NCBI RefSeq assembly: GCF_001282785.1
Contig: NZ_CVUA01000001.1
Span: 744,001-808,000, forward strand
Direction of reading: 5' to 3'
From: Halolamina sediminis
GTDB lineage: Archaea > Halobacteriota > Halobacteria > Halobacteriales > Haloferacaceae
DNA: 64,000 bases
Shown here: positions 36,591 to 48,735 of the stretch, one piece after another
Numbering within the stretch: the stretch's first letter is position 1
How the letters are laid out: each line of letters starts with the position of its first letter
Program-made: the position numbers and the translations under genes
Notes under the pieces: generated by a model
The model's database searches: none
Seen by the model: the letters and a program-made list of their open reading frames with translations, nothing else
What the model was told of the DNA's origin: nothing

Positions 36591-37739
36591 TCAGGTCGGG
36601 TCCACGCCCTCGACGTCGTCGAGCGAGCGGTTCTTGAGCGCCTTGCCGGTGCGGTCGTCGAACAGGTGGATCGCCTCCGGCGGGATGGTCGCAACCACGC
36701 GGTCACCCGAGGAGACGGTACGCATCCCGCTGATCGTCGCGATGAACGTCTCCCCGTCGGGCGCGTCCCCGAAGCGGAGGTAGACGTTGTTCGACTCCCC
36801 GACGGGCTCGACCACGTCGACGACGCACTCGAAGTCGTGCGGGCCGAGCGTGTCGGTCTCGGCCGCGAACTCGACGTCCTCCGGGCGCACGCCGAGCGTC
36901 ACGTTCGTCGCGTCCCCGAGCGCCTCGCGGACGGCTTCCGGGAGTGGGTAGGTGAACCGCTCAGCCGAGAGCGCGTCGCCCTCGCGGGTCGTCGGGAAGA
37001 AGTTCATCGACGGCTCGCCGATGAACCCCGCGACGAAACGGTTGGCGGGCGTGTGATAGCACTCGAGCGGCGTCCCCACCTGCTGGAGCACGCCGTCGTC
37101 GAGCACGGCGATGCGGTCCCCCATCGTCATCGCCTCGGTCTGGTCGTGGGTGACGTACACCGTCGTCACGCCCAACTCGTCCTGAATGCGCTGGAGTTCG
37201 GTGCGCATCGTCGCCCGGAGCTTCGCGTCGAGGTTCGACAGCGGCTCGTCCATCAAAAACGCCGCGGGGTCGCGCACGATCGCGCGACCGAGCGCGACGC
37301 GCTGCTGCTGGCCGCCGGAGAGCTCCGAGGGCTTGCGGTCGAGCAGCTCCTCGATGCCCATCATCGTCGCCGTCTCCTCGACGGTGGTCCGGATCTCGTC
37401 GTCGGGCATGTCGGTCGACTCCTCCAGCCCGAAGCTCATGTTCTCCCTGACGGTCATGTGGGGGTACAGCGCGTAGGACTGGAACACCATCGCGATGTCC
37501 CGATCCGCGGGCGCCGTGTCGTTGATCGCGCGTCCGCCGAGCCGGATCTCGCCGTCGGTGACGGTTTCGAGGCCGGCAATCATGCGCAGGGTCGTCGACT
37601 TCCCGCAGCCGGAGGGGCCGACGAGCACGAGGAACTCCCCGTCCTCGATCCCCATGGCCACGTCGTCGACAGCGACGACCTCGTCGCTTCCCCCGTCGTT
37701 GAACACCTTCGTTACCGAGTCGAGCGTTAGTTCTGCCAT
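36591..37739 (-). CDS. Sugar ABC transporter ATPase (MalK/UgpC-type)
   Basis: A 382-residue ATPase of the carbohydrate CUT1 group. Walker A GPSGCGKST, Q-loop FQSYALYPHMTVRENM, signature LSGGQQQRVALGRAI, Walker B AFLMDEPLSNLDAKLR and switch His YVTHDQTEAMT are intact. The C-terminal 130 residues form the TOBE/OB regulatory domain (TLGVRPEDVEFA). Belongs to a four-gene importer with the binding protein at 39723, and lies right behind the glucose catabolic genes, so glucose or another hexose is the probable substrate. Confidence 0.9.
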   Translation of the reverse strand: MAELTLDSVTKVFNDGGSDEVVAVDDVAMGIEDGEFLVLVGPSGCGKSTTLRMIAGLETVTDGEIRLGGRAINDTAPADRDIAMVFQSYALYPHMTVRENMSFGLEESTDMPDDEIRTTVEETATMMGIEELLDRKPSELSGGQQQRVALGRAIVRDPAAFLMDEPLSNLDAKLRATMRTELQRIQDELGVTTVYVTHDQTEAMTMGDRIAVLDDGVLQQVGTPLECYHTPANRFVAGFIGEPSMNFFPTTREGDALSAERFTYPLPEAVREALGDATNVTLGVRPEDVEFAAETDTLGPHDFECVVDVVEPVGESNNVYLRFGDAPDGETFIATISGMRTVSSGDRVVATIPPEAIHLFDDRTGKALKNRSLDDVEGVDPT

Positions 37740-37758
37740 CGTAGATCACCTCTGAACC

Positions 37759-38658
37759 TCATGTGGCTACCCCCTCGGCGAACTTGTCGCCGAACAGGAC
37801 GTACACCACGAGCGTCGGCAGCGCCGCCAGCAGCGCCGCGGCCATCCGCAGCGGGAAGTTCGTCCCCGACTGGGACACCCCGATCCCGACGAGCTCCTGT
37901 GTCACCACCGACGCGTCGCCGAACTGGACGATCGTCAGCGCGAACAGCAGGTCGTTCCAGATCTGGGTGAACTGGTAGATGAACACCACCGCGAACATCG
38001 GAACCGACAGCGGTAGCACGATCCGGCGGTAGATCGTCGACACCGAGGCGCCGTCGAGCCGGGCCGCCTCGATCATCTCCGTGGAGAGCTTCTTGTAGTG
38101 GGCCCGGAACAGCAGCGTACAGATCGGGATGCCGTAGGCCGTGTGGGTGACGATCAGCGCCACCAGCTTCCAGTGGTACTCCTGAATTAGCGGGAGCGCC
38201 GCGAACGGCGCGAACAGCGACTGCAGCGGCACGACGTTGTACCAGAACTGCGTCAGCGGCACCAGCACCGCCTGGTACGGGATGAAGATACCCGCGACGA
38301 ACAGCGCGTAGATCCCGACCTGCCCGCGCCAGTCGACGTTGGTCAGCCCGTAGGCGGCCATGCTCCCGAACAGTCCGGAGAGGATCGTCGCCGGGATCAC
38401 GAGGATGAAGCTGTTCGCCAGCCCGCGGGCGAGTCCGTCGAACGCGTTCCCCCACGACTGGAGCGAGAACGAGCCGGTTTCGGAGATCAGCGGCTCCAGC
38501 GGCGGAAGGAACGGTGCCTGCCCGGTGTAGCTCTCAGGGCTGGTGATCGACGTGAACAGCCCCGTCAGGATCGGCAACAGGTAGAACCCGGCCATCCCGA
38601 TCAGCACGACGTAGAGGGCGGTCCGCTTCAGCTGCACCCCCTCCTCGTTCGTGCTCAT
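37759..38658 (-). CDS. Sugar ABC transporter permease (MalG-type)
   Basis: A 299-residue permease with about six membrane segments, beginning with a short cytoplasmic head. The EAA loop is EMIEAARLDGASVSTIYRRIVLPL, and the end VVYVLFGDKFAEGVAT is typical for MalG. The stop is 19 bases from the ATPase start. Overlaps the MalF-type gene by four bases (ATGA). Confidence 0.9.
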   Translation of the reverse strand: MSTNEEGVQLKRTALYVVLIGMAGFYLLPILTGLFTSITSPESYTGQAPFLPPLEPLISETGSFSLQSWGNAFDGLARGLANSFILVIPATILSGLFGSMAAYGLTNVDWRGQVGIYALFVAGIFIPYQAVLVPLTQFWYNVVPLQSLFAPFAALPLIQEYHWKLVALIVTHTAYGIPICTLLFRAHYKKLSTEMIEAARLDGASVSTIYRRIVLPLSVPMFAVVFIYQFTQIWNDLLFALTIVQFGDASVVTQELVGIGVSQSGTNFPLRMAAALLAALPTLVVYVLFGDKFAEGVAT

Positions 38659-39701
38659 AGGTCACCTCGTCGGTACTGCGAGTAGACGTACGGCGCGACG
38701 ATACACAGCGCCATCACGAACAGGATCACCGCGATCGTCGAGCCGTACGCCCAGTTCTGGTTGGCGTACGCCTCCCTGACCATCCGCGTCGCGAGGATGT
38801 CCGCCGACGGGCCGGGCTGGTAGCCGCCGTACATCGAGAACAGGAAGTCAAAGGCCTTGAGCGCGAACACCGTGATCACGACCAGCGCGCTCACGGTCGC
38901 GGTCCGGAGTTGGGGGATGATCACCCGCCAGTACATCTTGACCGTGCTCGCGCCGTCGACGCGGGCGGCCTCGAAGTGACTCGACGGGATGCCCCGAAGT
39001 GCGGCGAGGTAGACGATCATCGCGTAGCCGCTGAACTGCCAGATCAGCGCGAACGCGACCGCCCCGAGCTTCAGGTCGGGGTTCTGGACGATCTGTACCG
39101 GGCCGATCCCGAACACGCCGAGAGCGACGTTGATCAGTCCGGTGTTGGGGTTGTACATGTAGAGCCAGAACTTCGCCGTGACGACGAAGGAGAGGCTCAT
39201 CGGCAGCAGGTAGATCGTCCGGAACGTGTTCTCGAAGCGGATCCCGCGGTCGACGAGGATCGCGAGCAGCAGGCCGAGCGCGAGACAGACCGCCGCGAAC
39301 CCGACCATCAGGGCGATCGTGTTGCCCAGCGAGTTCCAGACGGGCTCGACGGTCAGGTCGGACCACGCCGGCGTCGCGCCGTTCACCTCGCCGCCCATCC
39401 CGACCATCGAGAGGATGCCGTCGATCGGGTCCGAGAACGCGACGAGGTAGTTCTCGACGTCCAGATCCGTGTAGTCGGGCTCGCCGATGCCGGAGAAGTC
39501 GGTCAGCGAGAGCAGGAAGTTCCAGACGACGGCGCCGTACACGAACAGTCCGACGAGCAGGAACGGCGGCAGCCAGAACGGGGCCGACCGGACCGAGTCC
39601 CGCGAGAGCAGCGACCGCTCCGACTCGGCGGCGGATCCGCCGTCGGTGCGGGCGTCGCTGTCGGACCAGCGGTTACGAAGTGTGGCTATCGGGTCACGCA
39701 T
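38655..39701 (-). CDS. Sugar ABC transporter permease (MalF-type)
   Basis: A 348-residue permease. The N-terminal 35 residues are charged and cytoplasmic, then a first segment (FWLPPFLLVGLFVYGAVVW). The EAA loop is SSHFEAARVDGASTVKMYWRVIIPQL and the last segments end YVYSQYRRGDL. A loop of about 70 residues between the first two segments (DFSGIGEPDYTDLD...) is the external part usual for this subunit in archaea. Confidence 0.9.
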   Translation of the reverse strand: MRDPIATLRNRWSDSDARTDGGSAAESERSLLSRDSVRSAPFWLPPFLLVGLFVYGAVVWNFLLSLTDFSGIGEPDYTDLDVENYLVAFSDPIDGILSMVGMGGEVNGATPAWSDLTVEPVWNSLGNTIALMVGFAAVCLALGLLLAILVDRGIRFENTFRTIYLLPMSLSFVVTAKFWLYMYNPNTGLINVALGVFGIGPVQIVQNPDLKLGAVAFALIWQFSGYAMIVYLAALRGIPSSHFEAARVDGASTVKMYWRVIIPQLRTATVSALVVITVFALKAFDFLFSMYGGYQPGPSADILATRMVREAYANQNWAYGSTIAVILFVMALCIVAPYVYSQYRRGDL

Positions 39702-39722
39702 ACCTGTGCTTCCAGGGAATCG

Positions 39723-41006
39723 TTACTCGAACGCGCCGACGAGCGCCTCCGCGGTGGCGTCGACGTCGTAATCTTCGAGGAAGCCGCTGAAAGCACTGGT
39801 GATGTTCGTCTTGATCCCGGGCGAGACCGCCAGGCCGTGCTGGATCGACGGCGGCTGGCTGTCCGCGCCCGTGAAGTCCTCGTACTGGTCCTGCTGGAAC
39901 GTGTTGAGCTGGGACACGTCGGCGTCCTTCCGGGGCGGGATCGACCCCTTCTCGCGGTTGAACAGCACCTGCCCCTCCGTGCTGGCACAGTAGCTGAGGA
40001 ACGTCTTGGTCGCCTCCGGCGAGGGGTTGTTGTCGAAGTACGGGAACGAGTCCATGTTGAGCAGGTAGCTCCCTTCCGAGCCGGGGTAGGTGACCTGTCC
40101 CCAGTCCTCGCCGTAGTTGAACTCGTCGTTGCCGCTGTACGCGCCCGCGGCCCAGTCGCCCTGGTGGATGAAGGCGGCGTCGCCCTCCATCACCATCGTG
40201 TTCGCCTCCGTGAAGCCGATCGAGGAGGCGTCGCTGGGGTAGTACTCGCTGAGCTCGACGACGTGTTCGAGCGCCGCGCGGACCTGCTCGACGTCGCCCT
40301 CACCCTCGGTGAAGGCGGTGTAGCCGTCGACGCCGGCCTGTGCGAGCAGCGCCGTCTCCCAGAGCTGGATCGTCGACCACGTACCGCTGGTCTGCTGGGC
40401 GAACGGCACCGCATCGGTGTTCTCCGCGACGGCCGCACACGCGTCGACCACGTCCGCCGGCGAGGAGAGCGACTCGGGGTCGACGCCGGCCGCTTCGAGC
40501 ACCGCGGTGTTGTAGAAGAGGTTGTTGATGCGGTGGATGTTCAGCGGCACCGTGACGTACGTCCCGTCGAGCTTGGCCTGCTCTTTGGGTCCCGGGAGGT
40601 AGTTCTCCTCCACCTCGTCGGTCCAGACGTCCTCCTCGATGCTGGCGTAGGCCTCGCCGAACTTCTCCAGGGTGGCGCCCGGCCACGTCTGGAACGTGCT
40701 CGGCGGGTCGTTGGCCTGCAGTCGGTTGCCGATCACCTGGTCGAGGTTGCCACGTGCGGCGCCGTTGACCGGCTCCTCCGCGAACTCGACGTCGGGGTGG
40801 GCCTCCTGGAACCCCTCGATCAGCGCCGCGATGGCGGCGTTACCGTCGCCCGAGGACCACGCGTGGAGCAACTGAATCGGGTTCTCGGGCCCGCCACCGC
40901 CGCCGGTGAGGCTGCTACAGCCGGCCAGTCCTGTCGCACCCACCGCCGCGGCGGACGCGAGCACGCTTCGCCGCGAGCGCCCCGCCTCGTTCGTGTCCGA
41001 GGACAT
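39723..41006 (-). CDS. Sugar ABC transporter substrate-binding lipoprotein
   Basis: A 427-residue extracellular solute-binding protein of the carbohydrate family 1. From ATG 41006 the N-terminus is MSSDTNEAGRSRRSVLASAA, with a twin-arginine motif and a lipobox (GLAGC), hence Tat export and lipid anchor. The family core LLHAWSSGDGNAAIAALIEGFQ and PDVEFAEEPVNG are characteristic; aromatic residues NLFYN and SYLLNMDSFPYFDN probably line the sugar site. An ATG seven codons upstream would lengthen the signal. Heads the importer operon. Confidence 0.9.
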   Translation of the reverse strand: MSSDTNEAGRSRRSVLASAAAVGATGLAGCSSLTGGGGGPENPIQLLHAWSSGDGNAAIAALIEGFQEAHPDVEFAEEPVNGAARGNLDQVIGNRLQANDPPSTFQTWPGATLEKFGEAYASIEEDVWTDEVEENYLPGPKEQAKLDGTYVTVPLNIHRINNLFYNTAVLEAAGVDPESLSSPADVVDACAAVAENTDAVPFAQQTSGTWSTIQLWETALLAQAGVDGYTAFTEGEGDVEQVRAALEHVVELSEYYPSDASSIGFTEANTMVMEGDAAFIHQGDWAAGAYSGNDEFNYGEDWGQVTYPGSEGSYLLNMDSFPYFDNNPSPEATKTFLSYCASTEGQVLFNREKGSIPPRKDADVSQLNTFQQDQYEDFTGADSQPPSIQHGLAVSPGIKTNITSAFSGFLEDYDVDATAEALVGAFE

Positions 41007-41020
41007 ATGTGACGAACGTA

Positions 41021-41036
41021 TACACACTTACGAGTA
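41021..41036 (-). promoter_or_regulatory. TrmB-like site in the sugar importer promoter
   Basis: Read on the minus strand, TACT-CGTAAGT-GTGTA has 7-base spacing and one mismatch to TACT-N7/8-GAGTA. It overlaps TTTACT, a TATA-like element centred about 26-30 bases before ATG 41006, so binding could block or guide transcription of the importer. Confidence 0.45.
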
Positions 41037-43316: not shown

Positions 43317-44255
43317 TCAGATCTCGATCGCCTCGCCGCCCGCGGCCCGCTCGAGGCCGACGACGACCGCGGCACCGACGACCGCCGCCCCACAGAAGAG
43401 GCCGATCGCGGCCGTCGTCCACCCAGTGTCGAGCCGTGTCGCGGTCTGGACGACTGGCGCCCGGAGCGCGCCGACGACCAGCGCGACGAGGAACGTCATC
43501 GTCGCCGCCTTCCGGCGGTCGAGCGCCCACCTGACCGCGTGGGCGACGGTGAACAGGCCGCCGACGCCGCCCGCGAGGAACGTGAGGATCGTCGGCGTCC
43601 CCGCGGGGATCGACGCTGACTCGCCCGTGAGGATCGCGAACACGGCGTCGACGAACGCGCTCAGGTGGTCGATCATGTACTCGTACTGTCCCAGCAGCAG
43701 GAGCAGCAGCGAGCCCGACACGCCGGGCAGGATCATCGCGGTCACCGCGATCGAGCCAGCGAGGAAGGTGACGGGCAGGCTGTGTCCGAGCGCCCCTTCT
43801 GCCTGCCCGGAGAGCAGGAACGCGACCGCGAACCCCGAGACGGCGGCGGCTTGCCGGCCGCGGGTGTCGAACGCCATCTCCCGGCGCAGCAGCCACGCCG
43901 AGGCGCCGATCAGCCCGAAGAAGCCGCCGAACGTCGCCGCGGGGTAGGCGGCCATCGCGTGTTCGAGCACGCGCGAGACGGTCACGATCGCGGTCGCGAT
44001 CCCCAGCCCGAGTGCGGCGAGGAACAGCCCGTCGATCTCACGGAACGCCGCGACTGCGTCGGCACGGCGGTCGGGCAGCGGTGCGGCGACGATGTCGAGC
44101 AGTCGGTCGGGCTCGACGGCGGTGATCGCGGCGATCAGTCGCGGGTAGATGCCGGTCAGCAGCGCGATGGTCCCCCCCGAGACGCCGGGCACCGCGTCCG
44201 CGGCGCCCATCGCGATCCCGCGGAGGTAGACGCCCAGGGAGGCCCGTCCAGCCAT
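43317..44255 (-). CDS. popT: DUF368 protein, polyprenyl-phosphate transporter (PopT-like)
   Basis: A 312-residue membrane protein with about eight segments, with the DUF368 internal repeat: GAADAVPGVSGGTIALLTGIY near the N-terminus and AGSIAVTAMILPGVSGSLLLLLLGQYEYM in the middle, the two PGVSG elements being the family mark. Bacterial DUF368 proteins were shown to recycle undecaprenyl phosphate across the membrane. Here the start codon overlaps the aglB stop (TAATG), so the two proteins are co-translated; AglB releases dolichyl phosphate on the outside, and a transporter for its return is expected. Confidence 0.85.
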   Translation of the reverse strand: MAGRASLGVYLRGIAMGAADAVPGVSGGTIALLTGIYPRLIAAITAVEPDRLLDIVAAPLPDRRADAVAAFREIDGLFLAALGLGIATAIVTVSRVLEHAMAAYPAATFGGFFGLIGASAWLLRREMAFDTRGRQAAAVSGFAVAFLLSGQAEGALGHSLPVTFLAGSIAVTAMILPGVSGSLLLLLLGQYEYMIDHLSAFVDAVFAILTGESASIPAGTPTILTFLAGGVGGLFTVAHAVRWALDRRKAATMTFLVALVVGALRAPVVQTATRLDTGWTTAAIGLFCGAAVVGAAVVVGLERAAGGEAIEI

Positions 44256-47200
44256 TAGTTCGTCGCCCGCGCCGCCGGACCGAGCGCGTCGAGCTCGCCG
44301 ATCACGCTCGGCGCCTCGACGGCTGTGTCGGATGACTGGTCGTCACCGTCGGCGGTCGCCGACAGCTCGGTGCCTGCGAGGCTGCTGGTGTTCTCGGTCG
44401 TGTTCGTTTCGTTGCCGCTCTCGTTCTGTGCGCCCTCGGGCGGCTGTGTGCGCTTCTCGAGCGTGATCTGTTTGGGCTCCTCGTCGACGCCCAGCACCTT
44501 CCCCTCGGAGACGTCGAACTCCTGGCCGTACTGGATCGAGTAGCCGCTCTCGTTGGTCGTCGCCGGCGCCGAGACGGTGTAGCTCCCGTTGGCGCGGACG
44601 CTCACGTTCGTGTAGCCGTCCTCCGGCCCGAACTCGTCGTAGCCGGTCGTGGAGTACGGCAGCGTCAGCGTGAACTCACCCTCGTCGTTCGTCTCGGCGT
44701 GCTGCGTGTAGGTGAACGTCTGGTTCGACGACGGCATCCGCATCTGGACGGAGGCGGTCACCTCGGTGTTGGCGGGCGCGTTCGACCCCTCGACGGTCGC
44801 GCTCGGCACCTTCTCGAACGTCTTCACCCACGACGGCGTCGTGGTGGACTGCTGGTAGATCAGCCCGTAGAGCCGGTCGCCGGCCATCGCGGCCTGTCGG
44901 CGGTCGTTCAGCTGGAAGTTCCGGTTCTGGGCCTCGCTGGCCTTCGCCAGTCGGTAGTGCTCCAGCGCGGGGACGTCCTCGCTCGGGAACGGCCCGACGC
45001 CGCCGATCTGGGCGCTGCCGTCCTCCTCGACGTACGCCTCGGCGGCGCTCATGTTGGGGAAGCGCCGCAGCATCGAGTCGTTGGCCATCGTCGTCCGGGC
45101 GTCGAAGGACTCGCCGTCGGCGCTGGTCAGTTCGCGGGTCTCCCAGTCGACCACGAACGGCGCGGCGTCCTGTGCGGAGCCGTGGTAGCGGTACAGCCGG
45201 ATCATCAGGCTCTCGTAGTACCGCTGGTCGTAGATCTGGGCCGACTGGCTGACGAACGTGCCGCGTTCGGTCTCGTTGAGCTGGTAGATGCCCTCCGCGA
45301 AGTCGCTGTAGGAGACGTTCTGGTCGTCGTAGAACGTCACGGGCGCGCTGAACTTCGAGGTGACCGAGGCCATCTGGTAGTCGACCATCACGTAGCGGGT
45401 CTCCTCGCCCGGCTGAGCGCGGCGGTCGAGCACGTTCTGGGCCTGGCTCTCGTTGGGCGCGAGCAGGTAGTTCGCGGCGTTGGTCGCGCCCTGCTGGAAC
45501 GGGTTCGCGTTCGGAATCCGTTCGCTCTGGGTCGTGATCCAGTGGCCGTAGTCCCACCACGACATCACGCCGTAGGCACCTTCGGGGTACTCGAAGTCGT
45601 CAGTCTTCTCGTAGGCGCCGTAGTACTCCATGTCTTCGGCGTTGCCGGCGCCGCCGAGGTTCCCTTCTTCGGGGGTGTTGTTCTGCATCCAGTCGAACGT
45701 GCCTTCCCACGCGAGCACCGCGCCCGGGCCGGTGCTGTTGCCGGTCTGGACCGACGTGGCGGTCTGCGTGCCGGGGCTACCGGGGCCGCCGCCGAGCGTG
45801 ACGGGCATCGCGAGCACGGGCGCGGCGACGAGCAGGAGGACGGCGGCGACGGTGAGCACCTGGTGGCCCTCCAGCTCCTCGACGAACATGATCGCGCCCA
45901 CGAGCGCCGCGGCCGCGACCGCCACTGCCGCGAGCGTCTGATCGAGCAGCAGCAGGCCGAACACGACCGGAACCGCCGCGAAGCCGATCGTGCGGACTTC
46001 GAGGTCGGCCGCGGCCAGCGCGCTGTCGATGTCGATGTAGTTGAGCACGCGGCCGAACAGGTACGCGTTCGCGACGACGACGACGACGGCGAGGTAGTAG
46101 TTGAAGCGGACCTGGGTGAACGCCATCGAGGTGATAAAGGCTGCCCAGACCACGAACAGCAGGTCGGTCGCCTCGTACTCCGCGATCAGCGGTGCACCAG
46201 CGAGGAGCGCCGCGACGATCACGAGGCCGAGCACTTGCTGGTCGATGCCGACGGCGCCGCCGATCACGCTCGGCAGCGGCGTCAGGAAGATCAGTGCGGC
46301 GGTCAGGAGGCTGCCGCCGAGGTAGGTGTACGCACGCTGGGTGCCCTTGCGAATCAGCGGGCGGGCGTGCATGAGCACGACCGCGAGGATCGCGGTGAAC
46401 AGGGTGACCCCGTACTCGAGGATGATGCGTTCGGTACCGCTGTTGAGGCCGTACTGCTGGATGGAGTTCTGGCTGATGAACGGTTGGGCCTCGGAGATGG
46501 TTCGGGTGGCAGCGCCGGCGCTGAAGCCGACGATACGGAGGAGGTTGCCGGTGATCTGACTGTAGAGCCCCTGAGCGACGACGGAGATCACGATCGTTCC
46601 AATCGTGCCGACCGCGAGGATGGCGACGGGGAAGTAGGTCGGGTCGATGTCCTCGCGTTCCCAGTAGCGGGCGAACACGGCGAAGAACACAGCCGCTGTG
46701 GCGACGGCAAAGGCGGCGATCGGCTGGAGAAGGGAGTGGGCGGTCGTTCCGATACCGATCGTGTCGATCAGGAGGACGCTTATCACGCCGGTGACACCCA
46801 TCGACACGGCTACCACGAAGGCGATCGGTTCGGGAGTATCACCGTGGACAACGTCCGTGACAACGTTCAGGACGAGGAACAGACCGACGATACCGACGAG
46901 GAACACTGCTGGCGGCCACGCCCAGATGAACAGTCCCATTAGGACGCCAGCAGCGACGGACCAGAGGAGTGGTTCCTTTGTCGTATCGAGATCTCGGGAC
47001 TCGATCAGTTCCTCGCGTACAACCTCCCAGACTGGCATCGTCCGATTTGCGACGGCGACGGCGCCGAAGAGGCCGACCATCGCCATTCCCATGAAGAACG
47101 GCTCGACGGCGTTGTGATCGGCAGCACCGACGAGCGTTCGCTGGAGGAAGAGTCCCGGAAGGAGTGCGAGGAGGAATACAGCGAACAAGCCGCCAAGACG

Positions 47201-47638
47201 GCTACTGAACCGTTTACCGATGAAGTAGACGGGAACCACAGCGAGGGCACCGAAAACGGCTGGCGAAACGAGGAGGACTTTGGCGACGAGTGCCTCGTTG
47301 GGGGAACCGAGACCGATGATCAGTGCCAAGAGGGCGACCAGTTGGTCGTAGAGCGTCCCGAACTGCCCTGCGAACCGGCCTACCGGGAACCCAGTCCAGG
47401 GATCGAAGGGCATGACACCCGGGAAGTTCAGCGTGCTGTAGGTGCTCTGTCGCAGGTGGTACCAAGCGTCGTTCCCGGAGAAGTACACCTCGTTGTTCTG
47501 GAGGAACCGGGAGTAGTTCTGCATCCGGACCCAGAACATCCACGCCATCGCGAGGAGGAGTGCGGGGACGTGGTACCAGTCGGCCGCCGTATCGCGGAGC
47601 GACTGGAGAAAGTCGTTGCTTTCGCTTCGCGAACTCAT
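44255..47638 (-). CDS. aglB: Oligosaccharyltransferase AglB (STT3)
   Basis: A 1127-residue enzyme that transfers the lipid-linked glycan to Asn in Asn-X-Ser/Thr on secreted proteins such as the S-layer glycoprotein. About thirteen membrane segments cover residues 25-620. The first external loop carries the metal-binding SGNDAWYHL (Asp57). The sequon-binding motif WWDYG is at 694-698 in SWWDYGHW. The C-terminal soluble domain includes FFQQ-like NPFQQGATNAANYLLA and ends in a Ser/Thr/Asn-rich tail with several sequons of its own. ATG 47638 (MSSRSESNDF) is preferred to one nine codons above. Co-translated with popT. Confidence 0.95.
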   Translation of the reverse strand: MSSRSESNDFLQSLRDTAADWYHVPALLLAMAWMFWVRMQNYSRFLQNNEVYFSGNDAWYHLRQSTYSTLNFPGVMPFDPWTGFPVGRFAGQFGTLYDQLVALLALIIGLGSPNEALVAKVLLVSPAVFGALAVVPVYFIGKRFSSRLGGLFAVFLLALLPGLFLQRTLVGAADHNAVEPFFMGMAMVGLFGAVAVANRTMPVWEVVREELIESRDLDTTKEPLLWSVAAGVLMGLFIWAWPPAVFLVGIVGLFLVLNVVTDVVHGDTPEPIAFVVAVSMGVTGVISVLLIDTIGIGTTAHSLLQPIAAFAVATAAVFFAVFARYWEREDIDPTYFPVAILAVGTIGTIVISVVAQGLYSQITGNLLRIVGFSAGAATRTISEAQPFISQNSIQQYGLNSGTERIILEYGVTLFTAILAVVLMHARPLIRKGTQRAYTYLGGSLLTAALIFLTPLPSVIGGAVGIDQQVLGLVIVAALLAGAPLIAEYEATDLLFVVWAAFITSMAFTQVRFNYYLAVVVVVANAYLFGRVLNYIDIDSALAAADLEVRTIGFAAVPVVFGLLLLDQTLAAVAVAAAALVGAIMFVEELEGHQVLTVAAVLLLVAAPVLAMPVTLGGGPGSPGTQTATSVQTGNSTGPGAVLAWEGTFDWMQNNTPEEGNLGGAGNAEDMEYYGAYEKTDDFEYPEGAYGVMSWWDYGHWITTQSERIPNANPFQQGATNAANYLLAPNESQAQNVLDRRAQPGEETRYVMVDYQMASVTSKFSAPVTFYDDQNVSYSDFAEGIYQLNETERGTFVSQSAQIYDQRYYESLMIRLYRYHGSAQDAAPFVVDWETRELTSADGESFDARTTMANDSMLRRFPNMSAAEAYVEEDGSAQIGGVGPFPSEDVPALEHYRLAKASEAQNRNFQLNDRRQAAMAGDRLYGLIYQQSTTTPSWVKTFEKVPSATVEGSNAPANTEVTASVQMRMPSSNQTFTYTQHAETNDEGEFTLTLPYSTTGYDEFGPEDGYTNVSVRANGSYTVSAPATTNESGYSIQYGQEFDVSEGKVLGVDEEPKQITLEKRTQPPEGAQNESGNETNTTENTSSLAGTELSATADGDDQSSDTAVEAPSVIGELDALGPAARATN

Positions 47639-47796
47639 TGGCCTGAATCGTACCAAAACGGGCATAAGGTTTGTGTATCACTCTGAGAGGAGTTCGCCGT
47701 CGAGGGCTCTTCTCGGCGGTCGATCGAGTCCGGACGGTAACGGGGACGATGCAAGAGTCGAACGCTTTTTGCGGGCGTCACGAGTAGCCGCGGCCA

Positions 47797-48735
47797 ATGA
47801 AGATCTCCGTCGTCATCTGTACGTACTCGATGGATCGGTATGAGGTGTTCTGCGACGCGGTCGACAGCGTCCTCGAACAGACGTACGAGCCAGTAGAGAT
47901 CGTGTTGGTGGTCGACGGTAACGAGACCGTCTACGAGCGTGTGCGTGAGGAGTACGGGGACGTCGAGAACGTCGTCCACCACAACAACGACGAGAACCGT
48001 GGGATCTCCTACAGTCGGACGAAGGGTGCGGAGCTCGCGGCGGGGGAGATCGTCGCGTTCATCGACGACGACGCCGCCGCCGAACCGGACTGGGTGGAGC
48101 AGCTGGTCGAAGTGTATGCAGAATCGGACGCCATTGCCGTCGGCGGCGACGTGAAGCCCGACTGGCAGATTACAAAGCCCGATTTCTTTCCGGCGGAGTT
48201 CTACTGGCTGGTTGGCGTCGTCGAACCCGGGTTCGCGGAAGACGGCGAGGAGGTCCGGAACACGTACGGCTCGAACATCTCCTACCGGCGCGAGGAGTTT
48301 CTGGAAGTCGGAGGGTACGACCCAAACACCGGGCGGAAGGGTGATCGACATCTCCAAGCTCACGAGGCCCCCGTGGGGATTCGACTTCTGGAGGAGTACG
48401 GACGAGGGATGGTGTTCACGGAGGACGCGGTGGTGCACCACAAGCTGTTCGACTACCGCGGGGAGTTCGACTGGCTAGTGTCGCGGTCGTTCTGGCAGGG
48501 GTATTCCAAGCGCGTGATGGACCTGCTGTATCCGGACGCGCCGGACGACAAGAGCGAGTATTTGGAGCAACTACTGACCGAGCGTGTTCCGGGCCGGCTG
48601 AAGGGACTGGTTCGATCGCCGTCGGCGGCGGCAGTGAAGCAGCTGCTCGCGATCTTCGTGTTTACGGGGGCAGTAGGGCTGGGGTATCTGTACGCGATTC
48701 TGACGCCGAACGTGGTGGAGAAGGCTAATTCGTAG
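47797..48735 (+). CDS. aglG: Glycosyltransferase, AglG-like (GT2)
   Basis: A 312-residue family-2 glycosyltransferase. The nucleotide-sugar fold opens with KISVVICTYSMDRYEVF; the metal motif is AFIDDDAAAEPDW, and the acceptor region includes NTYGSNISYRREEF. A C-terminal membrane segment (LLAIFVFTGAVGLGYLYAIL) anchors it on the cytoplasmic side. It resembles Haloferax AglG, which adds the second (glucuronic acid) residue of the S-layer glycan, in length, start and position next to aglB. The exact sugar is inferred. Its last 11 bases overlap the convergent next gene. Confidence 0.75.
   Translation: MKISVVICTYSMDRYEVFCDAVDSVLEQTYEPVEIVLVVDGNETVYERVREEYGDVENVVHHNNDENRGISYSRTKGAELAAGEIVAFIDDDAAAEPDWVEQLVEVYAESDAIAVGGDVKPDWQITKPDFFPAEFYWLVGVVEPGFAEDGEEVRNTYGSNISYRREEFLEVGGYDPNTGRKGDRHLQAHEAPVGIRLLEEYGRGMVFTEDAVVHHKLFDYRGEFDWLVSRSFWQGYSKRVMDLLYPDAPDDKSEYLEQLLTERVPGRLKGLVRSPSAAAVKQLLAIFVFTGAVGLGYLYAILTPNVVEKANS

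Follow-up and report, generated by a model that had tools for sequence, protein, structure and literature searches.

A DUF368 (PopT-family) gene paired with aglB in haloarchaea, a candidate for dolichyl-phosphate return after N-glycosylation

Which protein brings the lipid carrier back across the membrane after archaeal N-glycosylation? To our knowledge, no archaeal protein has been experimentally assigned to this step, and none was found in the literature searched. The question is raised by a window of DNA from Halolamina sediminis (the whole stretch that was analysed; 64,000 nucleotides inside a 2.84 Mb contig), in which aglB, the gene for the archaeal oligosaccharyltransferase, is directly followed by a gene for a DUF368 membrane protein. 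In bacteria, DUF368 and DedA proteins have been implicated in the return of undecaprenyl phosphate, as reported in Sit et al. 2022 (PMC9876793). The first-pass annotation of this DNA stated that it knew of no assigned protein in archaea, which overlooks a result in the same source: the DUF368 protein of H. volcanii, HVO_RS12060, partly complemented a V. cholerae vca0040 mutant. Enrichment of DUF368 in the class Halobacteria was also noted there, whereas aglB is not mentioned in the available part of that article. The DUF368 family, its likely role and the trial of a haloarchaeal member in a foreign host were hence already known, and what is added here is the class-wide pairing of DUF368 with aglB. 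No paper in the literature searched mentions both PopT and AglB. The 2023 work of Roney and Rudner reportedly used a syntenic analysis, and it is quite possible that the aglB–DUF368 link was noticed in it.

Both genes are located on the minus strand. The product of aglB (44255..47638; an alternative in-frame ATG is possible upstream, at 47665) is an STT3-family protein of 1127 residues that matched TIGR04154 at 874.2 bits against a cut-off of 450, as well as PF02516, PF22627 and PF18079, in profile searches; this score and a WWDYG motif at residue 694 (WWDxG in the AglB subfamily) place it in that subfamily. The DUF368 gene (43317..44255) encodes 312 residues. The TAA stop of aglB occupies 44257-44255 and the ATG of DUF368 occupies 44255-44253, base 44255 being common to both (TAATG, 44253..44257), and the minus strand across the junction reads ...GACGAACTAATGGCTGG... 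The one-base overlap described in the first-pass annotation is therefore genuine, both genes being real by profile match and the junction having been read directly. On inspection of the junction, no clear GGAGG-like Shine-Dalgarno sequence was seen directly before the DUF368 ATG, which would fit re-initiation. The setting of the pair includes a divergent gene for an AglG-type glycosyltransferase (47797..48735, plus strand; NF041394, 513.8 bits, cut-off 440) and thrS, 71 bp from DUF368. Behind thrS lies a sugar-type ABC transporter operon (36591-41027; ATPase, two permeases and binding protein), which is related to the archaeal glucose transporters GlcV/GlcU/GlcT/GlcS.

By the known activity of its relatives, the AglB of the window is predicted to be an oligosaccharyltransferase that uses dolichyl monophosphate as the carrier. 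The AglB systems of H. volcanii and Hbt. salinarum belong to the same archaeal STT3 subfamily (TIGR04154), and the N-glycan of Hbt. salinarum is assembled on dolichyl monophosphate according to the available part of PMC8674786, in which no carrier recycler is named. Because of this carrier, the product freed by AglB should already be the monophosphate, in agreement with what had been supposed from the sequence. The monophosphate is also the carrier form handled by bacterial DUF368, as described in PMC9876793.

The family assignment of the DUF368 protein was upheld. PF04018, which is described in Pfam as 'Undecaprenyl phosphate translocase-like', matched residues 15-267 at 207.7 bits against a gathering cut-off of 26, covering positions 1-229 of the 246 in the profile, and the bacterial PopT translocases VCA0040 of V. 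cholerae and SAOUHSC_00846 of S. aureus share this family with the window protein over nearly the whole domain. In a 50-row alignment of the window protein and 49 relatives, mostly bacterial, GI-MGAAD, PGVSGGT and a further stretch, LPG-SG, are among the invariant positions; bacterial members have the invariant GAAD, PGVSGGT and LPGxSGS in common with the window protein, to which the Vibrio rows are ~35-37% identical. The protein is built from two internal repeats. A PGVSG motif occurs once in each of them, at residues 23 and 177, and the alignment of one half to the other has a probability of 97.8%; such a two-repeat build is frequent among transporters. As we read the alignment, the GAAD-PGVSGGT and LPGxSGS stretches together with the two-repeat build would define the PF04018 family, and the window protein has all of these features. 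It is 83-88% identical to proteins of Halolamina rubra and H. pelagica. The NCBIfam equivalogs NF052564 (V. cholerae type; 174.3 bits) and NF052563 (PopT; 84.2 bits) both remained below the cut-off of 400, and by these scores the protein would be a relative of both named bacterial equivalogs, filed as neither. PF04018 was the sole Pfam match at E <= 0.001, with no match to DedA (PF09335); the DedA/UptA flippases, for which the same bacterial step has been proposed, are thus unrelated to it by Pfam.

A single-sequence AlphaFold model of DUF368 was poor (pLDDT 45.5) and was replaced by a model built from the alignment, which is all-helical with a mean pLDDT of 89.9. A sequence search yielded no solved relative, and a fold search of the PDB with this model gave no match at E <= 0.001; the best hit, BbZIP, was rejected since its Z of 9.2 is within the chance range for helical bundles. 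As there is no convincing structural match, the mechanism of DUF368 is not drawn from structure. Transport of a polyprenyl monophosphate by the window protein is predicted by analogy, the H. volcanii homologue being the only haloarchaeal member that has been tried. In contrast to bacterial DUF368/PopT, for which the carrier is undecaprenyl phosphate, the haloarchaeal carrier is dolichyl phosphate, and the gene in the window stands behind an oligosaccharyltransferase gene.

PF04018 is present in 386 of the 391 genomes of the class Halobacteria. In a sample of 160 haloarchaeal genomes picked by PF04018 score, the first 80 among the best and the next 80 among the weaker, DUF368 followed aglB on its 3' side, with the same orientation and within 3 kb, in 123 genomes, which represent 60 of 81 genera and all but one of the ten families. 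This way of sampling affects the overall fraction: the pair was linked in 75 of the 80 genomes of the stronger set and in 48 of the 80 of the weaker set. Among evenly drawn haloarchaea (G000-G023), DUF368 was linked in 20 of the 23 genomes that carry it and unlinked in three, and one more genome was without DUF368. The linkage is, if anything, undercounted, because in some unlinked cases the assembly is fragmented and the two genes are on different contigs. The order that the first-pass annotation had wished to see checked is accordingly conserved, and these counts confirm that the pair exceeds chance. It is present in seven named genomes (three Halolamina, two Halomarina, Halapricum hydrolyticum and Halorhabdus salina) and is retained where identity to the window proteins is only 30-52% for AglB and 41-61% for DUF368, and no AglB-like gene was found in the flanks of 73 other DUF368 loci of the same search, which are bacterial by their titles.

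One locus per linked genus was then compared; these 60 loci were chosen as linked and serve for a comparison of neighbours, not for an estimate of frequency. DUF368 is on the aglB strand in all 60. When the possible start nearest to the aglB stop is counted (an in-frame ATG or GTG, which need not be the true start), its distance from that stop is at most 10 bp in 36 of the genera, at most 100 bp in 49 and at most 300 bp in 56. Other neighbour clusters occur in at most 31 of the 60 loci; a divergent cluster taken as the AglG family is found in 31, AglG matches are present in many loci, and thrS is not kept, the other 59 loci giving only two weak matches (35% and 25%). With its surroundings scrambled in this way, the aglB–DUF368 pair stands out.

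Four spacing outliers (L091, L099, L102 and L145), from Haloferax and three related groups, have a gene of opposite orientation between aglB and DUF368, which by its look would encode an AglM-like UDP-glucose dehydrogenase. Group g7 is identified as Haloferax by its PCNA, which matches the H. volcanii PCNA chain of 3HI8/3IFV at 95-100% identity; the treatment of Haloferax as an unlinked group was thereby ruled out, its DUF368 being beside aglM and aglB. Along this locus, on the border of the agl cluster, aglB is followed by aglM in the opposite orientation and then by DUF368 in the orientation of aglB. In the genome with 100% identical PCNA (G189), the order is two sugar-nucleotide/glycosyltransferase-like genes, aglG, aglB, aglM and DUF368, which is in line with the known H. 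volcanii agl cluster of aglF, aglI, aglG, aglB and aglM. Unlike in the window, the stop-start overlap is lost in Haloferax owing to the intervening aglM. HVO_RS12060, given as the H. volcanii DUF368 protein in PMC9876793, is like the window protein a haloarchaeal member of PF04018, and it is probably the direct counterpart of the latter because the Haloferax relatives place DUF368 beside aglM and aglB. Near the glycosylation genes of the window there is also a weak match to the sulfatase family (PF00884; 49765-50685), and proteins 40-44% identical to its product occur near aglB in two Haloferax loci, three of them in a row in one (L304; the other is L303).

From these data the following account is proposed. 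Transfer of the glycan to protein by AglB would leave dolichyl monophosphate on the outer leaflet, and DUF368, as the PopT-family member of haloarchaea, would move it back to the inner leaflet for recharging. Standing behind aglB in what would be one transcript, often with a stop-start overlap, the DUF368 gene would be expressed in step with aglB, so that the supply of the carrier protein is matched to AglB. The observations underlying this account are that DUF368 belongs to PF04018, that it is paired with aglB, that the pair is conserved and that the two genes are co-absent as described below. The dolichyl-phosphate substrate, the inward direction, the co-transcription and the matching of supply are what we infer, and the return of dolichyl phosphate is helped by the partial complementation seen with the H. 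volcanii homologue (PMC9876793). We consider the account as a whole probable, although well short of certain.

The pair is absent in 37 of the 160 genomes, and about a quarter carry DUF368 away from aglB, which counts against the account and does not support a strict dependence. In a quick tree, in which 41 of 97 inner branches were weakly supported, 16 of the 21 unlinked haloarchaeal copies examined formed one supported clade (L146-L152, L154-L158, L160-L162 and L205); the remaining five, placed among linked relatives, look like independent relocations. The clade represents a second haloarchaeal DUF368 subfamily, apart from aglB, which some genomes have as their sole copy and others as an additional one; some f4 genomes, such as G005, have both linked and unlinked DUF368. 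No widely conserved neighbour of DUF368 was found in the f3/f11 part of the unlinked clade, and no obvious replacement transporter was seen by eye behind aglB in the unlinked genomes. Such unlinked copies, a genome with DUF368 but without AglB (G225) and the service of bacterial members to several glycan pathways (PMC12826051) would agree with DUF368 as a general recycler for every dolichol-dependent pathway, its place behind aglB reflecting AglB as the largest user. This is unlikely, yet it deserves consideration; AglB is suggested as the main partner by a pairing that is close, old and confined to aglB, and the two readings overlap.

AglB was absent from one of 174 tested genomes with DUF368, and four of the five genomes of the class without DUF368 (G186, G205, G306 and G381) are also without AglB at the TIGR04154 cut-off (Fisher p 6e-7 for co-absence); the fifth, G021, has AglB. 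However, the genes touch and the assemblies concerned consist of 90-180 contigs, so that a single gap or deletion explains the co-absence as well as a functional tie does. These four genomes, three of which are of one genus, represent either true loss of N-glycosylation or assembly gaps. Outside the class, PF04018 was found in 21 of ~124 other genomes of a phylum sample, with no AglB near DUF368 at any of 20 loci within a stretch of up to ~7 kb on either side, and AglB-type proteins also occur in genomes without DUF368. DUF368, absent from most genomes there, is thus no general archaeal need. Group f30, a family outside the class, includes three genera (L305, L306 and L307) in which DUF368 and AglB share a strand, with DUF368 12.5-14 kb upstream; by eye, the genes between them include an apparent thermosome subunit, and DUF368 is beside apparent uracil-uptake genes. 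From the look of the intervening genes, this stretch was read as shared gene order and not as a glycan cluster. Of the interpretation offered in the first-pass annotation, the conserved linkage and the family membership thus stand. In addition to the claim that no protein had been assigned, two parts are not supported as worded: a 'fixed partnership' is too strong for a pair missing from 37 of 160 genomes, with most of the examined unlinked copies in a separate clade and AglB without DUF368 in G021, and a recycling carrier of this type is not needed by archaea in general, most genomes outside the class being without DUF368 despite AglB-type proteins.

DedA proteins were present in all 59 haloarchaea checked, which counts against the account, and they may share the task as redundant recyclers. 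The 'dedicated' carrier of the first-pass annotation is no more than a conjecture. The further step, in which recycling is chiefly the work of DedA proteins and DUF368 serves as a back-up for high pH or high salt only, would accord with PMC9876793: V. cholerae requires DUF368 only under alkaline conditions, and DUF368 and a DedA gene form a synthetic lethal pair there. This step is improbable given that DUF368 is near-universal in the class and placed in an operon with aglB, and that the class inhabits high salt, where DUF368 is thought to be important (PMC9876793). It is more doubtful still that DUF368 brings the charged carrier to the outside or acts on some other lipid needed by the surface-layer machinery: the transport direction of DUF368 is unsettled in the available literature and the TIGR04154 subfamily is named for its association with archaeosortase A, so that other envelope steps are functionally close, but the uncharged monophosphate is the substrate described for the family, and the same activity is supported by the ability of the H. 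volcanii protein to complement in part (PMC9876793). An inherited gene order without functional meaning, simply unbroken since the ancestor of the class, is hardly credible when the pair stays together with many overlaps among scrambled neighbours, even though the sampled genomes are related and the comparison covered the neighbours at 60 linked loci.

The return of AglB-released dolichyl phosphate by DUF368 is therefore the reading retained, and on the sequence evidence DUF368 would be the best candidate for the missing archaeal carrier-lipid recycler. The more complete claim, that DUF368 is an AglB-coupled haloarchaeal return carrier which closes the lipid cycle of N-glycosylation within one operon and had not been recognized before, is advanced tentatively, with rather less than even confidence. 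A gene pair found across the class points to one candidate, and the recycler question is thereby reduced to the deletion of a single gene in Haloferax or Halobacterium. The chemistry would also be simple, since direct release of the monophosphate by AglB, if it occurs, would leave no need for an intervening pyrophosphatase step. If the proposal is true, the function of bacterial DUF368 would be extended to dolichyl phosphate and to extreme salt.
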